Assembly (NCBI GenBank): GCA_947624265.1
Contig: CANQJQ010000007.1
Location: forward strand, 1 to 32,257
Length of the DNA: 32,257 bases
DNA from: Candidatus Gastranaerophilales bacterium
GTDB taxonomy: Bacteria; Cyanobacteriota; Vampirovibrionia; Gastranaerophilales; Gastranaerophilaceae
Direction: 5' to 3'
Part shown: positions 18,807-31,198 of the stretch, in pieces
How the letters are laid out: every line of letters begins with the position of its first letter
Numbering within the stretch: the stretch's first letter is position 1
Made by a program: the position numbers and the translations under genes
The notes under the pieces: model-generated
The model's input: the letters and a program-made list of their open reading frames with translations, nothing else
What the model was told of the DNA's origin: nothing
The model's database searches: none

Positions 18807-20168
18807 TTGTACAACACTATATACCCAAATTATGTAAATAATTATTTTGGGGCTAATAACAGGCGGATAACAAGGAAGCAGGAGGAGGAGAAAAGTCCCT
18901 CTCAAACCTTGCAAAAAGCTGAGAATGAACCTCAGCAGGATAAACATGCGCCAAAAGACGGGGGAATGTATTTCCCAAACGGCGAAAAAACCGCTATAGA
19001 TTATACCAGAAGACAAATAAATATTGATCAGGTTATAAAAGATTTCAGGAATACCGCCAATGCAATAGGTGTTCCCGAGGAGTTAAAATCGGAAGTAAAC
19101 GGATATTTATCTTTAGTTGAAAGCCAGTCCCGAAAAGATGCGCCTAACCCGCAGATAATTCAATCAAATATAAAAACGGCATCCAAACTTTTGGATGAAT
19201 ATATAACAAATACGCTGAAAAAACCTTCAAGAGTTGTTGAAAATTGGGTGGATACACTGTTTTTACAAGAGGTTGATTATAAAAGCGCAATAAAACCGAC
19301 TGAAGAACCTGCAGAGGAAATTACCGACCCGACTCATGACGTTATTGAAGAAGAAACGGTTGAACCTGAAGTAATACCGAATGACCAACCCAAAAAAGGT
19401 TTTTATGTTCCCTCTGACGCGGATTTAAAACAGTTATTAACCGAAGCAAAAAGCTTTGCAAATAATAATAACAAAGAACACGCACTTTATTTGTTCCAGC
19501 AGGCTATGGATTATGCCGAACAAATAGGCGATTATCAGGCATGTGCAATAATTCATTATGAACAGGGGAAAATATATGACAGCTTTAACAGGCTTGAAGA
19601 TGCCCTGTATAATTACGACAGAGCTGCTAAACAATCAAATGATAACAATATAAAAGCAAGAGCTCATATATCTATGGGTAAAATCTATGATGATTTTATT
19701 TATTTTAAGCCTGCAGTTGACCATTATTGTGCTGCGGTTTCTTTTGCGGGAGAGTCTGATAACTTAAAACTGCAAACAAAAGCCTTAACCGATTTGGCTC
19801 AAATACACACAGACAGGTATGAAAAAGATAATGCCGTTATGTTTATTTCTTTTGCTTCCGCAATAGCGGAAGAAACAAAGGATAATAAGGTGAAGGGGTA
19901 TACATATTCTAAAGGCGCACGCAATTATACAAAATTGAATGATAAAGCACGGGCATTAAAATATTACGGAAATTCTGCTCAAGCATATTCTCTGGTTGAG
20001 GATAATGAGAATTTGGCTAAAAATTACCGAGATGCCGCGCAAATTATGCTCGGGTACGGCAATAAAGCAAAAGCAAGAACCTTATTATCTAAAGCATATA
20101 CTGCAGCGCAAAAAACGGATAATACCGTTTTAAGACAAGAAATAACGCAAAAAATTGCTGCTTTATAA
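18807..20168 (+). CDS. TPR-repeat protein, TTG start
   Basis: 453 residues. Residues 1-200 are low-complexity and mostly polar, with a proline/glutamate-rich stretch (TEEPAEEITDPTHDVIEEET). Residues 205-450 hold about six tetratricopeptide-like units, for example HALYLFQQAMDYAEQIGDYQ, DALYNYDRAAKQSNDNNIKA and ARALKYYGNSAQAYSLVEDN, so it is a protein-protein scaffold. No signal peptide is seen, suggesting a cytosolic location. The start is TTG at 18807 behind AAAAGGCGG; no ATG or GTG is available upstream in frame, and the next ATG would lose about 50 residues. Its partner is unknown. Confidence 0.8.
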   Translation: MYNTIYPNYVNNYFGANNRRITRKQEEEKSPSQTLQKAENEPQQDKHAPKDGGMYFPNGEKTAIDYTRRQINIDQVIKDFRNTANAIGVPEELKSEVNGYLSLVESQSRKDAPNPQIIQSNIKTASKLLDEYITNTLKKPSRVVENWVDTLFLQEVDYKSAIKPTEEPAEEITDPTHDVIEEETVEPEVIPNDQPKKGFYVPSDADLKQLLTEAKSFANNNNKEHALYLFQQAMDYAEQIGDYQACAIIHYEQGKIYDSFNRLEDALYNYDRAAKQSNDNNIKARAHISMGKIYDDFIYFKPAVDHYCAAVSFAGESDNLKLQTKALTDLAQIHTDRYEKDNAVMFISFASAIAEETKDNKVKGYTYSKGARNYTKLNDKARALKYYGNSAQAYSLVEDNENLAKNYRDAAQIMLGYGNKAKARTLLSKAYTAAQKTDNTVLRQEITQKIAAL

Positions 20169-20245: not shown

Positions 20246-21589
20246 ATGAAAATAGTTATATATGGCGCAAATGAAACTGCAGGCTTGATTGCGGCAAGTT
20301 TATTTGAAGATCACGATATAATTGTAATAGATGACGAATCAAACGTTAATGATGATATACAAAAACTTGATATAGAATACGTACAGGGAACTGGTTCAAA
20401 TATCGCACTTTTGGAGAAAATCGGAATAAAAGATGCGGATATTTTTATTGCCTGTACGGATAATGATGAAGCTAATATAGTTGCATGTCTGACCGTTACG
20501 AATATGACAAAACTTAAAACAGCTTGTTTTGTCAGTAAAAAAGAAAATGTTGAGTCTTTATCACTTGTCAGAGGTTCAAAATATCAGCGTGAACTTATGA
20601 TTGATTATGTTCTATGGCCGGAAGAACTTATGACTCAAGAAATTTTCAGAATAATTACTGTCCCTAACGCTATAGATGTTGAAAATTTTGCTAACGGTAA
20701 AGCAAGATTGCTTGAGTATAGAGTAGTAGAAAGCACAAATTTCATAAACAAAAAAGTAAAAGATTGCAGCTTTCCTGAAGAAACACTTATTGTGGGTATT
20801 ACAAGAGATGATACGCTTTTTATCCCTAACGGTGATACCGAATTAAAACTGAATGATAAAGTTATATTTATGGGTTCATCCTATTCTTTGGATATATTGG
20901 CAAATAAATTTTTTCAGGAAAAAAATGATGTTAAGCAGGTAACTATTATCGGAGGTGGTAATGTAGGTTTAATGCTTGCTCAAAACCTTGAAAAAGCCAA
21001 TATGAAAATAAAAATTATTGAATATGATTATGACAGATGTGTTGAACTGACCGAAAACTTAAAAAATACACTTGTAATAAACGGTGATGGTGCTAACTTT
21101 GCTCTGTTGGAAGAAGAACGGGTTAATGAATCGGATGTTGTTGTTTGTGTTACAAATAATGATGAAAAAAATCTTCTTTGCTCTTTATTATCTAAACAAT
21201 TGGGTGTCGATAAAGTTATAACAAGGGTTTCTAAAAATGCTAATGCAAATCTGTTTGAAAAAGTAGGCATTGATGTTGCTATTTCTCAAAACAGAGCTGC
21301 TATTGATGAAATTGAAAATCATTTGATTAAAACTGAAGTAGAAATTCTTGCAACCGTTGAAAGAGGACAGGGGAAACTTTTGGAAATATGTATTCCTTTT
21401 GATTTTAAAACTAATATGATTATGAACCTGAAACTTCCGTGTGAAGCAATAATAGCAATTATCCAACGAAGAAACAGAGTAATAATCCCCAGAGGTACTA
21501 CTCAAATAATGCCGTTTGATAACTTAATGGTATTTACAACTCAAAAAAATGCAGATGCAGTTTTAAATTACTTTAAAAGGTGTGTTTAA
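20246..21589 (+). CDS. trkA: Trk potassium uptake regulatory subunit TrkA
   Basis: 447 residues, the full two-repeat TrkA: RCK-N Rossmann, RCK-C, RCK-N, RCK-C. It is a peripheral cytosolic ring that gates TrkH in response to nucleotides. The second Rossmann motif is intact (VTIIGGGNVGLMLAQNLEKA, about residue 230), with the acidic ribose-binding end IIEYD. The first is altered: IYGANETAGLIAASL in place of G-x-G-x-x-G, though VIDDES keeps the acidic strand end. The trkH start lies 3 nt after its stop. Confidence 0.93.
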   Translation: MKIVIYGANETAGLIAASLFEDHDIIVIDDESNVNDDIQKLDIEYVQGTGSNIALLEKIGIKDADIFIACTDNDEANIVACLTVTNMTKLKTACFVSKKENVESLSLVRGSKYQRELMIDYVLWPEELMTQEIFRIITVPNAIDVENFANGKARLLEYRVVESTNFINKKVKDCSFPEETLIVGITRDDTLFIPNGDTELKLNDKVIFMGSSYSLDILANKFFQEKNDVKQVTIIGGGNVGLMLAQNLEKANMKIKIIEYDYDRCVELTENLKNTLVINGDGANFALLEEERVNESDVVVCVTNNDEKNLLCSLLSKQLGVDKVITRVSKNANANLFEKVGIDVAISQNRAAIDEIENHLIKTEVEILATVERGQGKLLEICIPFDFKTNMIMNLKLPCEAIIAIIQRRNRVIIPRGTTQIMPFDNLMVFTTQKNADAVLNYFKRCV

Positions 21590-21592
21590 TAT

Positions 21593-23077
21593 ATGAATTA
21601 CCGCAATATATTTAATACTATAAGTTTGATATTAAAATATATAGCCGTATTAATGCTTATACCCTGTATATGTGCGATTGTGTTTAAGGAATGGAATGCA
21701 TATCAGCCGTTTGTTCTTGCTTCGGTCGTATCTTTTTTGTTAAGTATAATACTTAGAGACCGTTCAAATACCGAAGATTTTAATAAAATTACAAAAGGAG
21801 AAACACTTGCTACAGTACTATTTTCGTGGGTGATTTTTGCCTTAATTTCTGCAATACCCTACTTGTATTATGGTTTAAGTCCTATAAATGCTTTATTCGA
21901 AAGTGTTTCGGGAGTAACTACAACAGGTGCAACAATATTAACGGATTTTAGTTTATATCCCAAAACCATGTTCTTTTGGCGCTCGTTCAGTCAATGGTTA
22001 GGCGGTATGGGAATATTAGTATTATTTATAGCAATACTTCCGCAATTTGCAATAGCCGGCAGACAGATGTTTTTTGCGGAATCCCCAGGAGCCGGCACGA
22101 CAGAAAGTAAATTGACTCCGAGAATAAGACAAACCGCAGCTGCTTTGTGGAGTATTTATTTTGTTTTGACGCTCTTAGAGGTGGTTATATTATACTGGCT
22201 TGGCATGCCTTTGTTTGATGCTATCTGTAATTCTTTTTCAACCGTTGCAAACGGAGGATTTTCACCTGCTGCCGATAGTATAATGCAATACGGCGACCCA
22301 AAATACTTGTGGACCGTAATCGTTTTTATGTTTCTTGCGGGTACCAACTTTGCCTTACAGTATAAAATTTATGTTAAAAGAAATATTCTTGCTCTCTTTA
22401 AAGATTATGAATTTAAACTGTATTTCTTTACCGTTTTGATATTTACAATATTAATAACAATAGTTCTTATATCTTCTAATATGTATAAGTTTACAAAGGC
22501 ATTTGAAGATGCTTTATTTCAGGTTGTATCAATAATAACCACAACCGGTTTTTACACGGTAGATTATAATGAATGGGATTTGAGAGCCAAATTAATATTA
22601 TTTATATTAATGTTTTGCGGTGCTTCAATCGGATCGGCATCAGGAGGTTTAAAATTATTAAGATTAATCTTCATTTTTAAATACTTGAAACGCCAAGTTT
22701 CAAAAATTTTTCACCCTAACGGCGTTTATCCCGTGAAAATTAACAGAGTTATTATAAATGAAGATATAGTAAGGCAAATGATATCTTTTGTAATTTTTTA
22801 TTATACGATTTTTGCAATAACAGCAGTATTATTAACATTTATTGAAGAGAATACAATTGTTGGGATTTCAAGTGCTATTGCTTCTTTAGGTAATGTAGGT
22901 CCCGGGTTCGGTTCAATAGGGCCTACAGGAAATTTTGCCGATATGCAAAATCTTTCAAAATTAATATGTATGATAAATATGCTCGTGGGGCGTTTGGAAT
23001 TAATCCCGTTTTTGGCATTATTACATCCTGATTTTTGGAGCTTTAAAAAAATAAAAAACTTGCCAAAAAAACAATAA
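21593..23077 (+). CDS. trkH: Trk potassium uptake pore subunit TrkH
   Basis: 494-residue multi-spanning K+ transporter of the TrkH/KtrB superfamily with four membrane-pore-membrane units. The filter loops are visible: SVSGVTTTGATIL (P1), SFSTVANGGFSPA (P2), SIITTTGFYTVDY (P3) and ASLGNVGPGFGSIGP (P4). SQWLGGMGILVLFIAILP is the conserved segment after P1. It partners TrkA directly upstream. The 3' end overlaps the promoter of the following operon. Confidence 0.95.
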   Translation: MNYRNIFNTISLILKYIAVLMLIPCICAIVFKEWNAYQPFVLASVVSFLLSIILRDRSNTEDFNKITKGETLATVLFSWVIFALISAIPYLYYGLSPINALFESVSGVTTTGATILTDFSLYPKTMFFWRSFSQWLGGMGILVLFIAILPQFAIAGRQMFFAESPGAGTTESKLTPRIRQTAAALWSIYFVLTLLEVVILYWLGMPLFDAICNSFSTVANGGFSPAADSIMQYGDPKYLWTVIVFMFLAGTNFALQYKIYVKRNILALFKDYEFKLYFFTVLIFTILITIVLISSNMYKFTKAFEDALFQVVSIITTTGFYTVDYNEWDLRAKLILFILMFCGASIGSASGGLKLLRLIFIFKYLKRQVSKIFHPNGVYPVKINRVIINEDIVRQMISFVIFYYTIFAITAVLLTFIEENTIVGISSAIASLGNVGPGFGSIGPTGNFADMQNLSKLICMINMLVGRLELIPFLALLHPDFWSFKKIKNLPKKQ

Positions 23078-23089
23078 ATATGATACAAT
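23060..23089 (+). promoter_or_regulatory. Promoter of the VWA/FHA/TonB-C operon
   Basis: TTGCCA, 18 nt, TACAAT with an extended TGA, overlapping the end of trkH. The start site near 23096 gives a leader of about 16-25 nt. Confidence 0.55.
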
Positions 23090-23111: not shown

Positions 23112-23789
23112 GTGAGTCGTATGTTTAGAAAAACTTGTTTATTAGGAATAGTAGTATTAATAGCTGCTTATATACTGAAAATATTCGTAGTATCTTGTAT
23201 GAATATGGAGTTAGGTGAGTTTAAACCTGTAGCAACAATATTCTTGCTGGATATTTCAGCTTCAAACAGAGGTATTCTGGAACAACAAGAGCAGACAATA
23301 TTAAAAATATCAAAAAGACTTGATAGTGAAGATTTAAATTTGATATATGTTGTAACACAAGATGCTTATAATATATATAGCGGTAATCCTCACAAACTTG
23401 TTCAAATAAAGAAAACAATGCAAAAACAAGGAGAGTTTGATAAAGAAAAATGGGGTACGGCTTATGGTCTTGCTCTGAAAAAAGCAATCGGTGATGCATT
23501 AATATATGAACAAGAAGGGTTCAGACCGGCCATTATAGTTTTGGGTGATCTTGAAAATGAAGGAGATGTTACAAAACAGATTAATTGGAATACGCTGCCA
23601 AAAAATATTCAAAAAACTTTGAAATATACACCTGATTTAACATTGGCATTTTTATATGCACATCCTCAAAAATTAGATGTTGTTCGTCAGTCAATCTTGC
23701 CTGTTATGGGAGATAAAAATCTTATTTTGGCATCGGAAGAAAATGTAGATTTAGCTATTAGAAAAATTTTGGAAGCTATAGGAAGGTAA
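23112..23789 (+). CDS. Membrane-anchored VWA-like protein
   Basis: 225 residues. An N-terminal hydrophobic segment (LLGIVVLIAAYILKIFVVSC, residues about 10-29) anchors the rest outside the cytoplasm or leaves one TM helix. The body looks like a von Willebrand factor A domain: the strand ATIFLLDISASNRG carries the MIDAS D-x-S-x-S, KWGTAYGLALKKAIGDAL supplies the MIDAS Thr, and PAIIVLGDLENEGD the distal Asp. Such domains bind protein ligands through a divalent metal. The start may be GTG 23112 or ATG 23121 (GTGAG lies 4 nt before the latter). First gene of a three-gene operon. No exact family is recognised. Confidence 0.75.
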   Translation: MSRMFRKTCLLGIVVLIAAYILKIFVVSCMNMELGEFKPVATIFLLDISASNRGILEQQEQTILKISKRLDSEDLNLIYVVTQDAYNIYSGNPHKLVQIKKTMQKQGEFDKEKWGTAYGLALKKAIGDALIYEQEGFRPAIIVLGDLENEGDVTKQINWNTLPKNIQKTLKYTPDLTLAFLYAHPQKLDVVRQSILPVMGDKNLILASEENVDLAIRKILEAIGR

Positions 23790-23797
23790 AATTTTAA

Positions 23798-25471
23798 ATG
23801 AAAGTTGTTATAACTTCAAAAAATAATGAAAAAGTGTTTAATAATACAAATGTTATCAATATCGGTACAGCTCGTAATTGTGATTATAAATTGGATTTAG
23901 ATTTTGACTTGATTGTTTCACTGCAAAAATTAGAATCCGGAAGATGGCAGATAGTGAACAATTTCCAAAGCGACAGAATACTTTTTAAAGGACAACCTAT
24001 AGGAAAAACCATTGAAATTATAGGCTCCATTTGTAAATTGATGATAGCTGATACAGAAGAATTTATAGGTATTAAAATAACTGTGGGCGGAACAAATCCT
24101 AAAATTGTTTCGGGTTCTTTAGAACTTGCAAACAGAAAAAATGCCGAAAAACTTAAGCGTGAATCTCAAAAAACAATATCGATGATTGAAGATGAAGAGA
24201 TTAATGAACAAGATATAAAAACATTGTATGGTGATGGAGTTGGCGCTACAACTAAAATTAAAATAGACAGAAAAAAAGCTGATATTGAACGCAGAAGATC
24301 ACTGGTAACAAAAGAAATTGCTTATAAATCAAATGATTTAAGAGCAAAACTGGCACAGAATGAATTAATACTTGGTGTTTTAAACTTGCTCATAGCTTTT
24401 GTACCGCTGGCTATGGCATATATTTTAAAGGATATTATCAGACTGGAATCTTTAAACGGTCAGTTGCAGAATAAAATCTTATGCTTGGTATCAATATCAT
24501 TTATTATAATTACTTTATTGTTAAAACAAGGTCAATTTTTGGTACTTCAACAAAAAGGAAAATCAAGACTTTCCGCTTCTAATGTATTGATACAAAGATT
24601 ATGTTTATTATCATCTTGCGGTATTTTCGCAATGATAATAATAGCGTCATTAGCGGAATTAATGGTTCATACTTATAATTTACCGTTGTTAATACCTCAG
24701 ATGTTGTTATTATGTACATTTTTATGTATATTTTTAGGCATATTTGCCGGATTTACAAAAAATATGATAGCAGAAAGCGGTGAAGAACTTGACAGCTATG
24801 AATCAAGAGAAGATTTTCAGGCAGTAATTAAAGATTATCAGCAATGGATAAATTTATATGTAAACAACATAACCAAGAAAAAATTAAAAGATATAAATAA
24901 CAAAATATTTAATCTGCAATTAAAATCTTATTTGGAATTTTTCCTTGGTGTAATTACTGCTCCTTTCTTGGGATATGCGGTATCCCAAACATTGGGTGAA
25001 ATATTCCCTGAAGCTGCAGGATTTATAAGACTTTTAGGCGGAACATTAAAATTATCACCTATGTTCCTTGCTTTAGCGTCAATGATGATTATTTTTGCCT
25101 TCCATTGTTTTGCTACATCCTTTGCAACAACAAAAAGAATAAATGCTTCTAATGTAATAAAACAGGATGGTTTTAGTGATTATAATATACACGGAGTTAC
25201 CATTCACGGTGTAGAAAGCAGCAGAACTCTTAAAAAAGAAGCTAAAAAATGGTTACTGATAGCTATAGGTGTTATTATTATTGAATATACATTAAACGTT
25301 ACTTATTTCGTGGGAGTAATGGGCGGTGATATCTTAAATATGGTTATATGTGCTTTAGGGGCAGCTTTACCAACCGTTATTCTTATTATGGAAACCACAA
25401 TGCTTGGTAATACTAAATTTGAAATTATAATTCGTGAAGAATTATTGGAAAAAGTTGATAAGGATTATTAA
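23798..25471 (+). CDS. FHA-like domain fused to a multi-TM domain
   Basis: 557 residues. Residues 1-100 look like a degenerate FHA beta-sandwich: NVINIGTARNCDYKLDLDFD, then WQIVNNFQSDRILFKGQPIG and a hydrophobic strand, but the G-R and S-x-x-H phosphopeptide residues of true FHA domains are not clear. A charged linker (100-185) follows, then about eight TM helices, e.g. LGVLNLLIAFVPLAMAYIL, LVSISFIIITLLL, IFAMIIIASLAELMV, MLLLCTFLCIFLGIFAG, FFLGVITAPFLGYAV, LALASMMIIFAFHCFA and the C-terminal pair. I cannot name the membrane family. It is 8 nt after the VWA gene and 2 nt before the zinc-ribbon gene. Confidence 0.75.
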   Translation: MKVVITSKNNEKVFNNTNVINIGTARNCDYKLDLDFDLIVSLQKLESGRWQIVNNFQSDRILFKGQPIGKTIEIIGSICKLMIADTEEFIGIKITVGGTNPKIVSGSLELANRKNAEKLKRESQKTISMIEDEEINEQDIKTLYGDGVGATTKIKIDRKKADIERRRSLVTKEIAYKSNDLRAKLAQNELILGVLNLLIAFVPLAMAYILKDIIRLESLNGQLQNKILCLVSISFIIITLLLKQGQFLVLQQKGKSRLSASNVLIQRLCLLSSCGIFAMIIIASLAELMVHTYNLPLLIPQMLLLCTFLCIFLGIFAGFTKNMIAESGEELDSYESREDFQAVIKDYQQWINLYVNNITKKKLKDINNKIFNLQLKSYLEFFLGVITAPFLGYAVSQTLGEIFPEAAGFIRLLGGTLKLSPMFLALASMMIIFAFHCFATSFATTKRINASNVIKQDGFSDYNIHGVTIHGVESSRTLKKEAKKWLLIAIGVIIIEYTLNVTYFVGVMGGDILNMVICALGAALPTVILIMETTMLGNTKFEIIIREELLEKVDKDY

Positions 25472-25473
25472 TA

Positions 25474-26202
25474 ATGTATAGATGTACGGAATGTAACAAA
25501 GAATATGAAGAATGTCCTGATTTTTGCGAGTGCGGAAATGATACATTTGAAGAAGTAGATGTGGAGTTTAATGACTATGATGAAGAAGAGGAAATTATTC
25601 CTCCGCCCAAAAAACATTTAACTCCGCGTGAAAAAGAAGAACTGGCTCAAGAACAAAAAGAAAAAAATATGTCTTTAATCGTTATGGGTGTTGTTGCTGT
25701 CTTATTATGTATTGTTGTGTTTGTACTTCCTCCGCATAAAAAAGCAAAGATGGTAAAAGTTAAAGAGAAAGTTGCACAAGCTCAGGTTAAAATTCCTTCT
25801 GTTAATTCTTATTGGGATAATTCATTACCTTCAGTTTATAAAAAAGAAGATCCTTTGGCTAATTTACCTCTTTTAAATTCCAGATTCCGTTTTATATCAC
25901 CGGTACTTAGAGAATATCTTGTATATATCGGAAATGAATTTAGCAGAAAATGGGATAAGACAATTATTAATGGTTCAGGTGAAGCGAAAGTAGAATTTAC
26001 AATTGATAAAGAAGGTAATTTAGATTCAAAAAGAATAGTTTCAACTTCAAATAACGAAAGTTTAGATAATTCTGTTTTATTGGTTTTATCTAAATTGAAC
26101 AGTTTTGATGTTCCGCCTGATGACTATAAAGGTGAAAGAGTTTATATTACATTTAAGATAAATCCTGACAAATCATCCCAAGTTGTTTATCCGATGAAAT
26201 AA
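25474..26202 (+). CDS. Zinc-ribbon, single-TM, TonB-C-like protein
   Basis: 242 residues. The N-terminus is a small zinc ribbon (Cys4, Cys7 and Cys18, Cys20, with Cys14 between), followed by an acidic stretch (VDVEFNDYDEEEEIIPPPKK), one TM helix (SLIVMGVVAVLLCIVVFVLP, about residues 67-86) and a C-terminal domain resembling TonB-C/TolA-C: SRKWDKTIINGSGEAKVEFT, IDKEGNLDSKRIV and LNSFDVPPDDYKGERVYITFKI. The topology would place the ribbon in the cytosol and the TonB-like end in the periplasm. No ExbB/ExbD genes are nearby. The last 30 nt overlap the 3' end of aroA on the other strand. Confidence 0.78.
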   Translation: MYRCTECNKEYEECPDFCECGNDTFEEVDVEFNDYDEEEEIIPPPKKHLTPREKEELAQEQKEKNMSLIVMGVVAVLLCIVVFVLPPHKKAKMVKVKEKVAQAQVKIPSVNSYWDNSLPSVYKKEDPLANLPLLNSRFRFISPVLREYLVYIGNEFSRKWDKTIINGSGEAKVEFTIDKEGNLDSKRIVSTSNNESLDNSVLLVLSKLNSFDVPPDDYKGERVYITFKINPDKSSQVVYPMK

Positions 26203-30493: not shown

Positions 30494-31198
30494 ATGAAAA
30501 AATTATTTACTTATATACTTTTGATATTCAGCACGGTTGTATTAAGCACAAATGTAACCTTTGGTGCGATAAGCAAGCAAATTAATGCAAATATAAAGAC
30601 AAAAAGAGTACCTGCCGGAACCGTAATAAAATTGAAACTGTTAGATCCCGTAAGTTCTTCTACTGCATCGCTAGGCGATCAACTGGATATGATGATTGCG
30701 GATAATGTTACTGTGGATAATACCGTAGTAATTCCTCAAGGAACAGTTATAAGAGGTTCGCTGGAGGAAGTTCAAGCACCTAAAATGCTTTATAAGGGCG
30801 GAGTAATCAGGTTATATTTTGACCATATAGTAAGTCCTACAGGCAGACAGCTTCCTTTTTATGCAGGCATATATAATAACCCTAATGTAACTTATGACGG
30901 AGCTTTAAGCTCTAAAACAAATTATGCGACAGCATTAAATAAAACAGTAGAAAAAACAAAAAATATAGTAGTAACACCTACAACTTGGGCTTGGGATAAA
31001 GGAGAAGATATGCTGAACGGTGCACCAAAATATGTTTTTGCACCACTTACCGCTATTATTTCAGCTCCCGTAGCCGGAATTTATTTTGTAGGTGATTCTA
31101 TCATAAATGTATTCAGAAAAGGCGAAGATTTCGCGGTTAATCAAGGTGATACAATTGAAGTTCAACTGTTAAAACCGGTTGATATGCCGGTATATTAA
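30494..31198 (+). CDS. Exported protein of unknown function
   Basis: 234 residues with a clear signal peptide (MKKLFTYILLIFSTVVLSTN VTFGA, cleavage likely after FGA). The mature N-terminal half is beta-rich and recalls the TrbI/VirB10 C-terminal type of repeat (VPAGTVIKLKLLDPVSSSTA; VVIPQGTVIRGSLEEV; GGVIRLYFDHIVSPTGRQLP), though no conjugation genes are present. The C-terminal half has a weakly hydrophobic piece (VFAPLTAIISAPVAGIYFVGD). AAAGGAC precedes the ATG. Probably a periplasmic or envelope protein; I do not assign a function. Confidence 0.75.
   Translation: MKKLFTYILLIFSTVVLSTNVTFGAISKQINANIKTKRVPAGTVIKLKLLDPVSSSTASLGDQLDMMIADNVTVDNTVVIPQGTVIRGSLEEVQAPKMLYKGGVIRLYFDHIVSPTGRQLPFYAGIYNNPNVTYDGALSSKTNYATALNKTVEKTKNIVVTPTTWAWDKGEDMLNGAPKYVFAPLTAIISAPVAGIYFVGDSIINVFRKGEDFAVNQGDTIEVQLLKPVDMPVY

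Follow-up and report, generated by a model that had tools for sequence, protein, structure and literature searches.

Several described envelope proteins join an inner-membrane anchor to a TonB-type end. The TonB and TolA transducers of the TonB-ExbB-ExbD and TolA-TolQ-TolR systems have one transmembrane helix (TM) and a TonB_C domain, and a His within that helix is the residue by which they engage ExbB or TolQ. In Myxococcus xanthus, GltG crosses the inner membrane with a cytosolic FHA domain, a TM and a periplasmic TonB domain (PMC3169522). GltJ/AgmX proteins join a membrane anchor to a TonB-like end, and SjdR (TonB1) of Anabaena, a TonB-like protein with one TM that is extended at its cytosolic N-terminus, serves septal peptidoglycan structure, not siderophore uptake (both PMC8262864).

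The locus compared here with these systems lies in a MAG of Candidatus Gastranaerophilales (1.65 Mb, 85% complete). The window, that is, the whole stretch of DNA analysed, covers 32,257 nt (contig CANQJQ010000007.1), and the closest named relatives of its source are Candidatus Gastranaerophilales MAGs, many of animal-gut origin. Three genes, designated A, B and C, follow trkAH head to tail on the same strand.

20246-23077 (+), trkA and trkH, directly upstream of A; a steady neighbour in the genus
23060-23089 (+), promoter-like match upstream of A, TTGCCA-18-TACAAT with TG before the -10
23121-23789 (+), gene A, 222 aa; N-terminal TM and predicted periplasmic VWA domain with MIDAS
23798-25471 (+), gene B, 557 aa; FHA-fold head and eight TMs
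25474-26202 (+), gene C, 242 aa; four-Cys ribbon, one TM and TonB C-terminal domain

Gene order and distribution of the A-B-C locus

The gaps are 8 nt between A and B and 2 nt between B and C. The three ORFs, their coordinates and their spacing agreed with a preliminary description made from the letters of the window, apart from the start of A. This had been placed at GTG 23112, but the orthologues start with MFR or MFK, so ATG 23121 is probably the true start and the GTG a less likely alternative. A promoter shared by the three genes had also been proposed and could not be established. The region held 21 promoter-type sites against 20.2 expected, so the match at 23060-23089 is no better than chance, and no terminator was seen between trkH and A, which makes read-through from trkAH possible. 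Further 5', a gene for a TPR protein precedes trkA (18807-20168, +, called start TTG) and is conserved there at 24 loci of the genus; inspection of the protein revealed no signal peptide.

Within the genus, B was present in 33 of 35 genomes, and the order trkH-A-B-C was found in all 32 sampled loci, with B at approximately 59-88% protein identity. Convergent aroA came next in 30 of these loci. Two well-covered genus genomes (G008 and G032, 95-96% complete) were without B, so B is not essential; G008 had no full-length C either.

Most genera of the family carried a longer cluster, consisting of divergent plsY followed by T, A, B, X, two short membrane ORFs (Y1 and Y2) and C. The A-B-C set of the window is a short form of this larger T-A-B-X-Y1-Y2-C cluster and contains neither T nor X. 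Elsewhere in the window genome no X was found, in a search of the 85% complete MAG that was run without a positive control. Across the family, 94 B loci had enough flank to be compared (with a few places represented twice), and 31 of them were of the window type. A was directly upstream of B in 82 loci, with T there instead in the other 12, while C and/or X was downstream of B in all 94. The co-conservation of the three genes, put forward earlier as something to check, was therefore found. That the set directly follows trkAH was correct for the window but did not hold as a general link: the adjacency was seen in its own genus and one sister genus (L078/L158), and elsewhere the neighbours were plsY or other genes. 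For this study, trkA and trkH are not regarded as part of the A-B-C system.

The membrane part of B was matched in 110 genomes of one bacterial family among 339 genomes sampled across the phylum, with two other matches at noise level; G050, an incomplete genome of a different family in the order, gave one further match. It is thus essentially confined to Gastranaerophilaceae, where a genome may hold up to four copies of B. Three genomes of genus g22 (G113, G162 and G168) matched the full B profile at E ~1e-20 with the membrane part unmatched, and possibly encode FHA-only relatives. With its open frames, its domain matches and a gene order kept across a bacterial family, the A-B-C set is far beyond chance.

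Domain composition of the three proteins

Protein A has a single N-terminal TM (residues ~6-24) preceded by positive charge, and the charge together with the domain type would place the VWA domain that follows in the periplasm. In the profile search, the window protein alone matched VWA_2 at only E=0.09; 18 of 20 family members matched the same model, with a best E of 1.3e-6. The MIDAS consists of D44-x-S46-x-S48, T113 and D143, and among 95 distinct relatives these residues were conserved in 95, 94, 91, 90 and 90, respectively. Both the profile match and the DxSxS...T...D pattern of a VWA domain were thus present, and the anchored VWA with intact MIDAS of the preliminary description stands. 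A Lys or Arg was found inside the TM in 90 of the 95 sequences. A PDB sequence search with the A profile gave no useful match.

A is not indispensable everywhere: 12 of 94 clusters have no A, and in one ruminant sub-clade (L043, 3097-3762; L044, 9572-10237) its MIDAS is degenerate, with S48, T113 and partly D143 lost from A in an intact operon. A convergent gene next to the larger cluster encodes a secreted VWA protein whose DYSGS motif is intact (L035, 6260-7165; L031, 4987-5895; L034, 11784-12692). This gene was present also where the cluster was without A, which its product may replace.

Protein B comprises a cytosolic FHA-fold head (residues ~1-95), a linker with a long helix, and eight TMs by hydropathy. 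The FHA fold of the head was not detectable by sequence alone and was recognized by structure. In Foldseek, the AF2 model of the head matched FHA-1 of Rv1747 (6ccd) with a probability of 1.00, a TM-score of 0.75 over the domain and E=1.5e-3, and further FHA domains ranked after it, including that of CT664 (3gqs; TM-score 0.71 over the domain). The hydropathy count and this match bear out the eight TMs and the FHA-like head that had been described for B. The head shares its fold with the domains of Rv1747 and CT664, but differs from them in being joined to an eight-helix membrane domain and in having lost the phosphopeptide-binding Arg. All 110 sequences compared have T, S, N or A in place of this canonical residue, which makes binding of phosphothreonine unlikely, and the head appears to be a degenerate FHA domain.

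The membrane part of B was modelled from 50 sequences with fair confidence (pLDDT 84, pTM 0.72) and showed helices of up to 65 residues. Pfam (also tried with 23 members) and NCBIfam gave nothing beyond noise for B, and the PDB sequence search with the B profile gave no useful match. When the modelled membrane part was compared by Foldseek, no PDB entry matched at E<0.1 (best E 0.16) and the best viral model reached E 0.19; both best matches were dismissed as unrelated helical proteins. The membrane part of B is a new membrane protein family, with no known family or fold among those searched. A place for B among the MotA/TolQ/ExbB proton channels was checked: 23 members gave no Pfam match to that family, and no PDB fold matched at E<0.1.

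Five residues of B were invariant in 110 of 110 sequences: E496 and N500, which are membrane-buried in the middle of TM7, and H465, R337 and D339. Together with the Lys or Arg in the TM of A, E496 and N500 would mark the membrane core as functional. The idea that the TM Lys of A pairs solely with E496 was weakened, since E496 was retained in all 12 clusters without A and so has a use beyond any contact with A.

Protein C begins with a four-Cys ribbon (C4, C7, C18 and C20), followed by a TM (~67-85), a linker of ~57 aa and a TonB domain (146-227). All four Cys were invariant in 91 of 91 sequences. The C-terminal domain matched TonB_2 (PF13103, E=1.1e-11), TonB_C (PF03544, 2e-7) and TIGR01352 (2.9e-8), all above cut-off. 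The one TM, ribbon and TonB-C-like end reported earlier for C were therefore upheld, with the Pfam matches exceeding the curated cut-offs. From charge and domain type, the ribbon is predicted to be cytosolic and the TonB domain periplasmic. The periplasmic linker of window-type C proteins was 45-64 aa long (median 57, 13% Pro+Gln), compared with a median of 131 aa and 25% Pro+Gln in clusters with X; the long, Pro-rich, periplasm-crossing kind of linker was thus absent from window-type C. No partner was found for the TonB domain of C.

The larger sister cluster and T-like proteins

The proteins particular to the larger cluster were compared in the same libraries. T is a small secreted protein whose C-domain matched Pfam TrbI at E=1.9e-5, below the Pfam cut-off. 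No VirB10 chain was among its PDB matches, so Pfam is the sole source of the TrbI link. X has one TM, a long linker and a C-domain that is TonB-shaped by layout only. Pfam did not recognize this domain, and hhalign of C against X gave a weak 39-column alignment (probability 4.8); judged by layout, it may be homologous to TonB. The two tiny membrane ORFs between X and C (~45 and ~58 aa) were located at 8432-8761 in L100, 8445-8774 in L106 and 8448-8774 in L115. A K-P-x-M-H motif that follows the TM of the first is common to the start of X.

About five T-type genes were found in the window genome. One of them encodes a secreted protein of 234 aa and lies 4.3 kb downstream of the triad (30494-31198, +). 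Another is directly upstream of the only TonB-ExbB-ExbD-ExbD operon of this genome, on contig C12 (L136, 8244-11854), which encodes in order the T paralogue, a 398-aa TonB, ExbB, ExbD and ExbD. T is therefore found beside B clusters and beside a TonB operon, and T-like proteins accompany TonB-type arms in two settings. The same contig carries two tandem 574-aa ORFs (L136, 320-3835) with a near-identical N-terminal part and a diverging remainder, a recent duplication. By eye, the pair adjoins an MBOAT-like acyltransferase ORF, and the region is possibly a polysaccharide acetylation locus.

The larger cluster plausibly reaches the outer membrane. For the window cluster, where the linker of C is only 45-64 aa, the evidence favours a reach as far as the periplasm or cell wall over one to the outer membrane. 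The window version looks like a shortened sister that acts from the inner membrane through the periplasm to the wall and need not touch the outer membrane. The inside-to-outside coupling envisaged in the preliminary description is thus better supported for the larger cluster; for the window cluster, the part that extends to the periplasm or wall was retained and the step to the outer membrane has less support.

A predicted coupling complex and its alternatives

Taken together, A, B and C probably form one inner-membrane complex. This complex may link the state of the cytosol to a partner in the periplasm or wall, a reading to which, as a whole, we give about an even chance. In such a complex, B would be the platform, its eight long helices projecting into the cytosol and its degenerate FHA head serving as a protein-docking module rather than reading phosphorylation. 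A would be anchored beside B, with the metal-dependent VWA domain as the ligand-binding end in the periplasm. C would act as an arm that moves or tethers, with the four-Cys ribbon docked on the cytosolic side, the single helix packed against B, and the TonB-fold domain bound to a periplasmic or wall-located partner. Coupling would resemble that by TonB, TolA and GltG/GltJ, with B as the membrane partner in place of a co-encoded ExbB/TolQ protein.

We infer the physical association of the three proteins, and their coupling role, chiefly from conservation. Residues that never or hardly vary lie on either side of the membrane and within it (the MIDAS of A, the Cys of C and the core of B) and argue for a complex, and so do the co-conserved order trkH-A-B-C and the joint absence of B and full-length C from G008. 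The FHA fold of B, the TonB domain of C, the long modelled helices of B and the pairing of T-like proteins with TonB-type arms speak for the same reading. Against it are the 12 of 94 clusters without A, the degenerate MIDAS of one sub-clade, the short linker of C, the search for a partner of its TonB domain, which found none, the two genus genomes without B, and the C-domain of X, which resembles TonB in layout only.

The best rival to the A-B-C coupling complex is a motor-driven trans-envelope machine of the Agl-Glt/Nfs type for gliding, polysaccharide or wall work. Here, B and C would correspond to GltG and GltJ and A to a VWA adhesin, while the motor AglR-Q-S would have its counterpart in the distant ExbB-ExbD-ExbD set. 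We consider this unlikely, although the design principle is the same: the FHA domain, TonB end and membrane anchor of GltG and GltJ recur in the B/C set, with the two modules of GltG split over B and C. GltJ also has a cytosolic zinc ribbon, like C. In addition, C weakly resembles the AgmX/PglI C-terminal model NF033768 (E=0.0022, 18 bits, below the cut-off of 40), and the genome encodes a single TolQ-type protein and, side by side, two of the TolR type, which is the composition of AglRQS. However, neither B nor C unites FHA and TonB in one bitopic protein as GltG does; B has eight TMs and no TonB domain, and C has TonB without FHA. The conserved neighbours of B included no AglRQS motor and no GltC/D/E-type periplasmic TPR gene, so the motor genes are unlinked to the cluster. 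Gut Melainabacteria, moreover, are described as bearing flagella rather than gliding (PMC3787301). The earlier statement that no known system has this set holds in that no named system was matched, with the qualification that parts of the design occur in GltG and GltJ/AgmX.

SjdR, from the cyanobacterium Anabaena and set beside C by description only, likewise has one TM between a cytosolic N-terminal part and a TonB-like end. It differs from C in its incomplete TonB domain, and no four-Cys ribbon or A/B partners are reported for it.

A bolder and decidedly unlikely proposal is that B itself is a new ion-driven motor or gate, in which E496 and N500 (TM7), E380, P525 and E532 would form an ion path that moves C and X. 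If this were true, a force-transducing envelope machine would have evolved in the family independently of ExbB, TolQ and MotA.

In an ordinary Ton system, C would be the TonB that energises TonB-dependent outer-membrane receptors through the distant ExbB/ExbD. C does have a genuine TonB C-terminal domain, and like TonB and TolA it joins this to one TM; the genome also contains one ExbB, two ExbD and one receptor plug domain. We nevertheless hold this to be very unlikely. Each genus genome searched had exactly one ExbB match, and the single ExbB set of the window genome, on contig C12, is not encoded with C and comes with a separate 398-aa TonB whose TM contains a His. Of 95 C proteins, none had this residue in the TM core. 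Receptor plug domains were patchy, present in 9 of 23 genus genomes and in none of the triad carriers G003 (99% complete), G020 and G022. C further departs from TonB and TolA in its cytosolic ribbon, its short linker and its partnership with a VWA protein and B, and a Ton system leaves A and B unexplained. The ExbBD and receptor that had earlier been proposed for a search elsewhere in the genome were thus in part found, the former with its own TonB and the latter patchily.

A reduced type VI or type IV secretion apparatus, with the FHA, VWA and TrbI/VirB10-like parts as an export trunk, is highly improbable. FHA proteins accompany some type VI systems, noise-level matches to TssR/TssO models were obtained, and the TrbI match of T in the larger clusters recalls the C-terminal domain of VirB10. 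However, T is small, secreted, below cut-off and absent from the window-type cluster. The type VI sheath protein VipB was found in 0 of 24 genomes (E. coli control positive) and a VirB4-type type IV ATPase in 1 of 24, which was not the window genome (G000; control positive), so most genomes are without the latter. Least probable of all is that A-B-C assists or regulates the uptake of potassium by TrkAH, as suggested by its constant place right behind trkAH in the genus and the sister genus and by the missing terminator, since in most genera of the family A-B-X-C stands beside plsY or unrelated genes and, to our knowledge, TrkAH of other bacteria needs no such partner.

The operon is real, undescribed and lineage-specific, and no tested family fits it; its predicted role is trans-membrane coupling of the TonB/Tol/Glt sort. 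It would give the non-photosynthetic gut relatives of cyanobacteria, a common and hardly cultivated lineage, a lineage-specific coupling complex of their own, with as many as four copies in one genome. It also names a membrane family, B, that is described in no library used here, and suggests that TonB-type arms may pair with a partner other than ExbB/TolQ.
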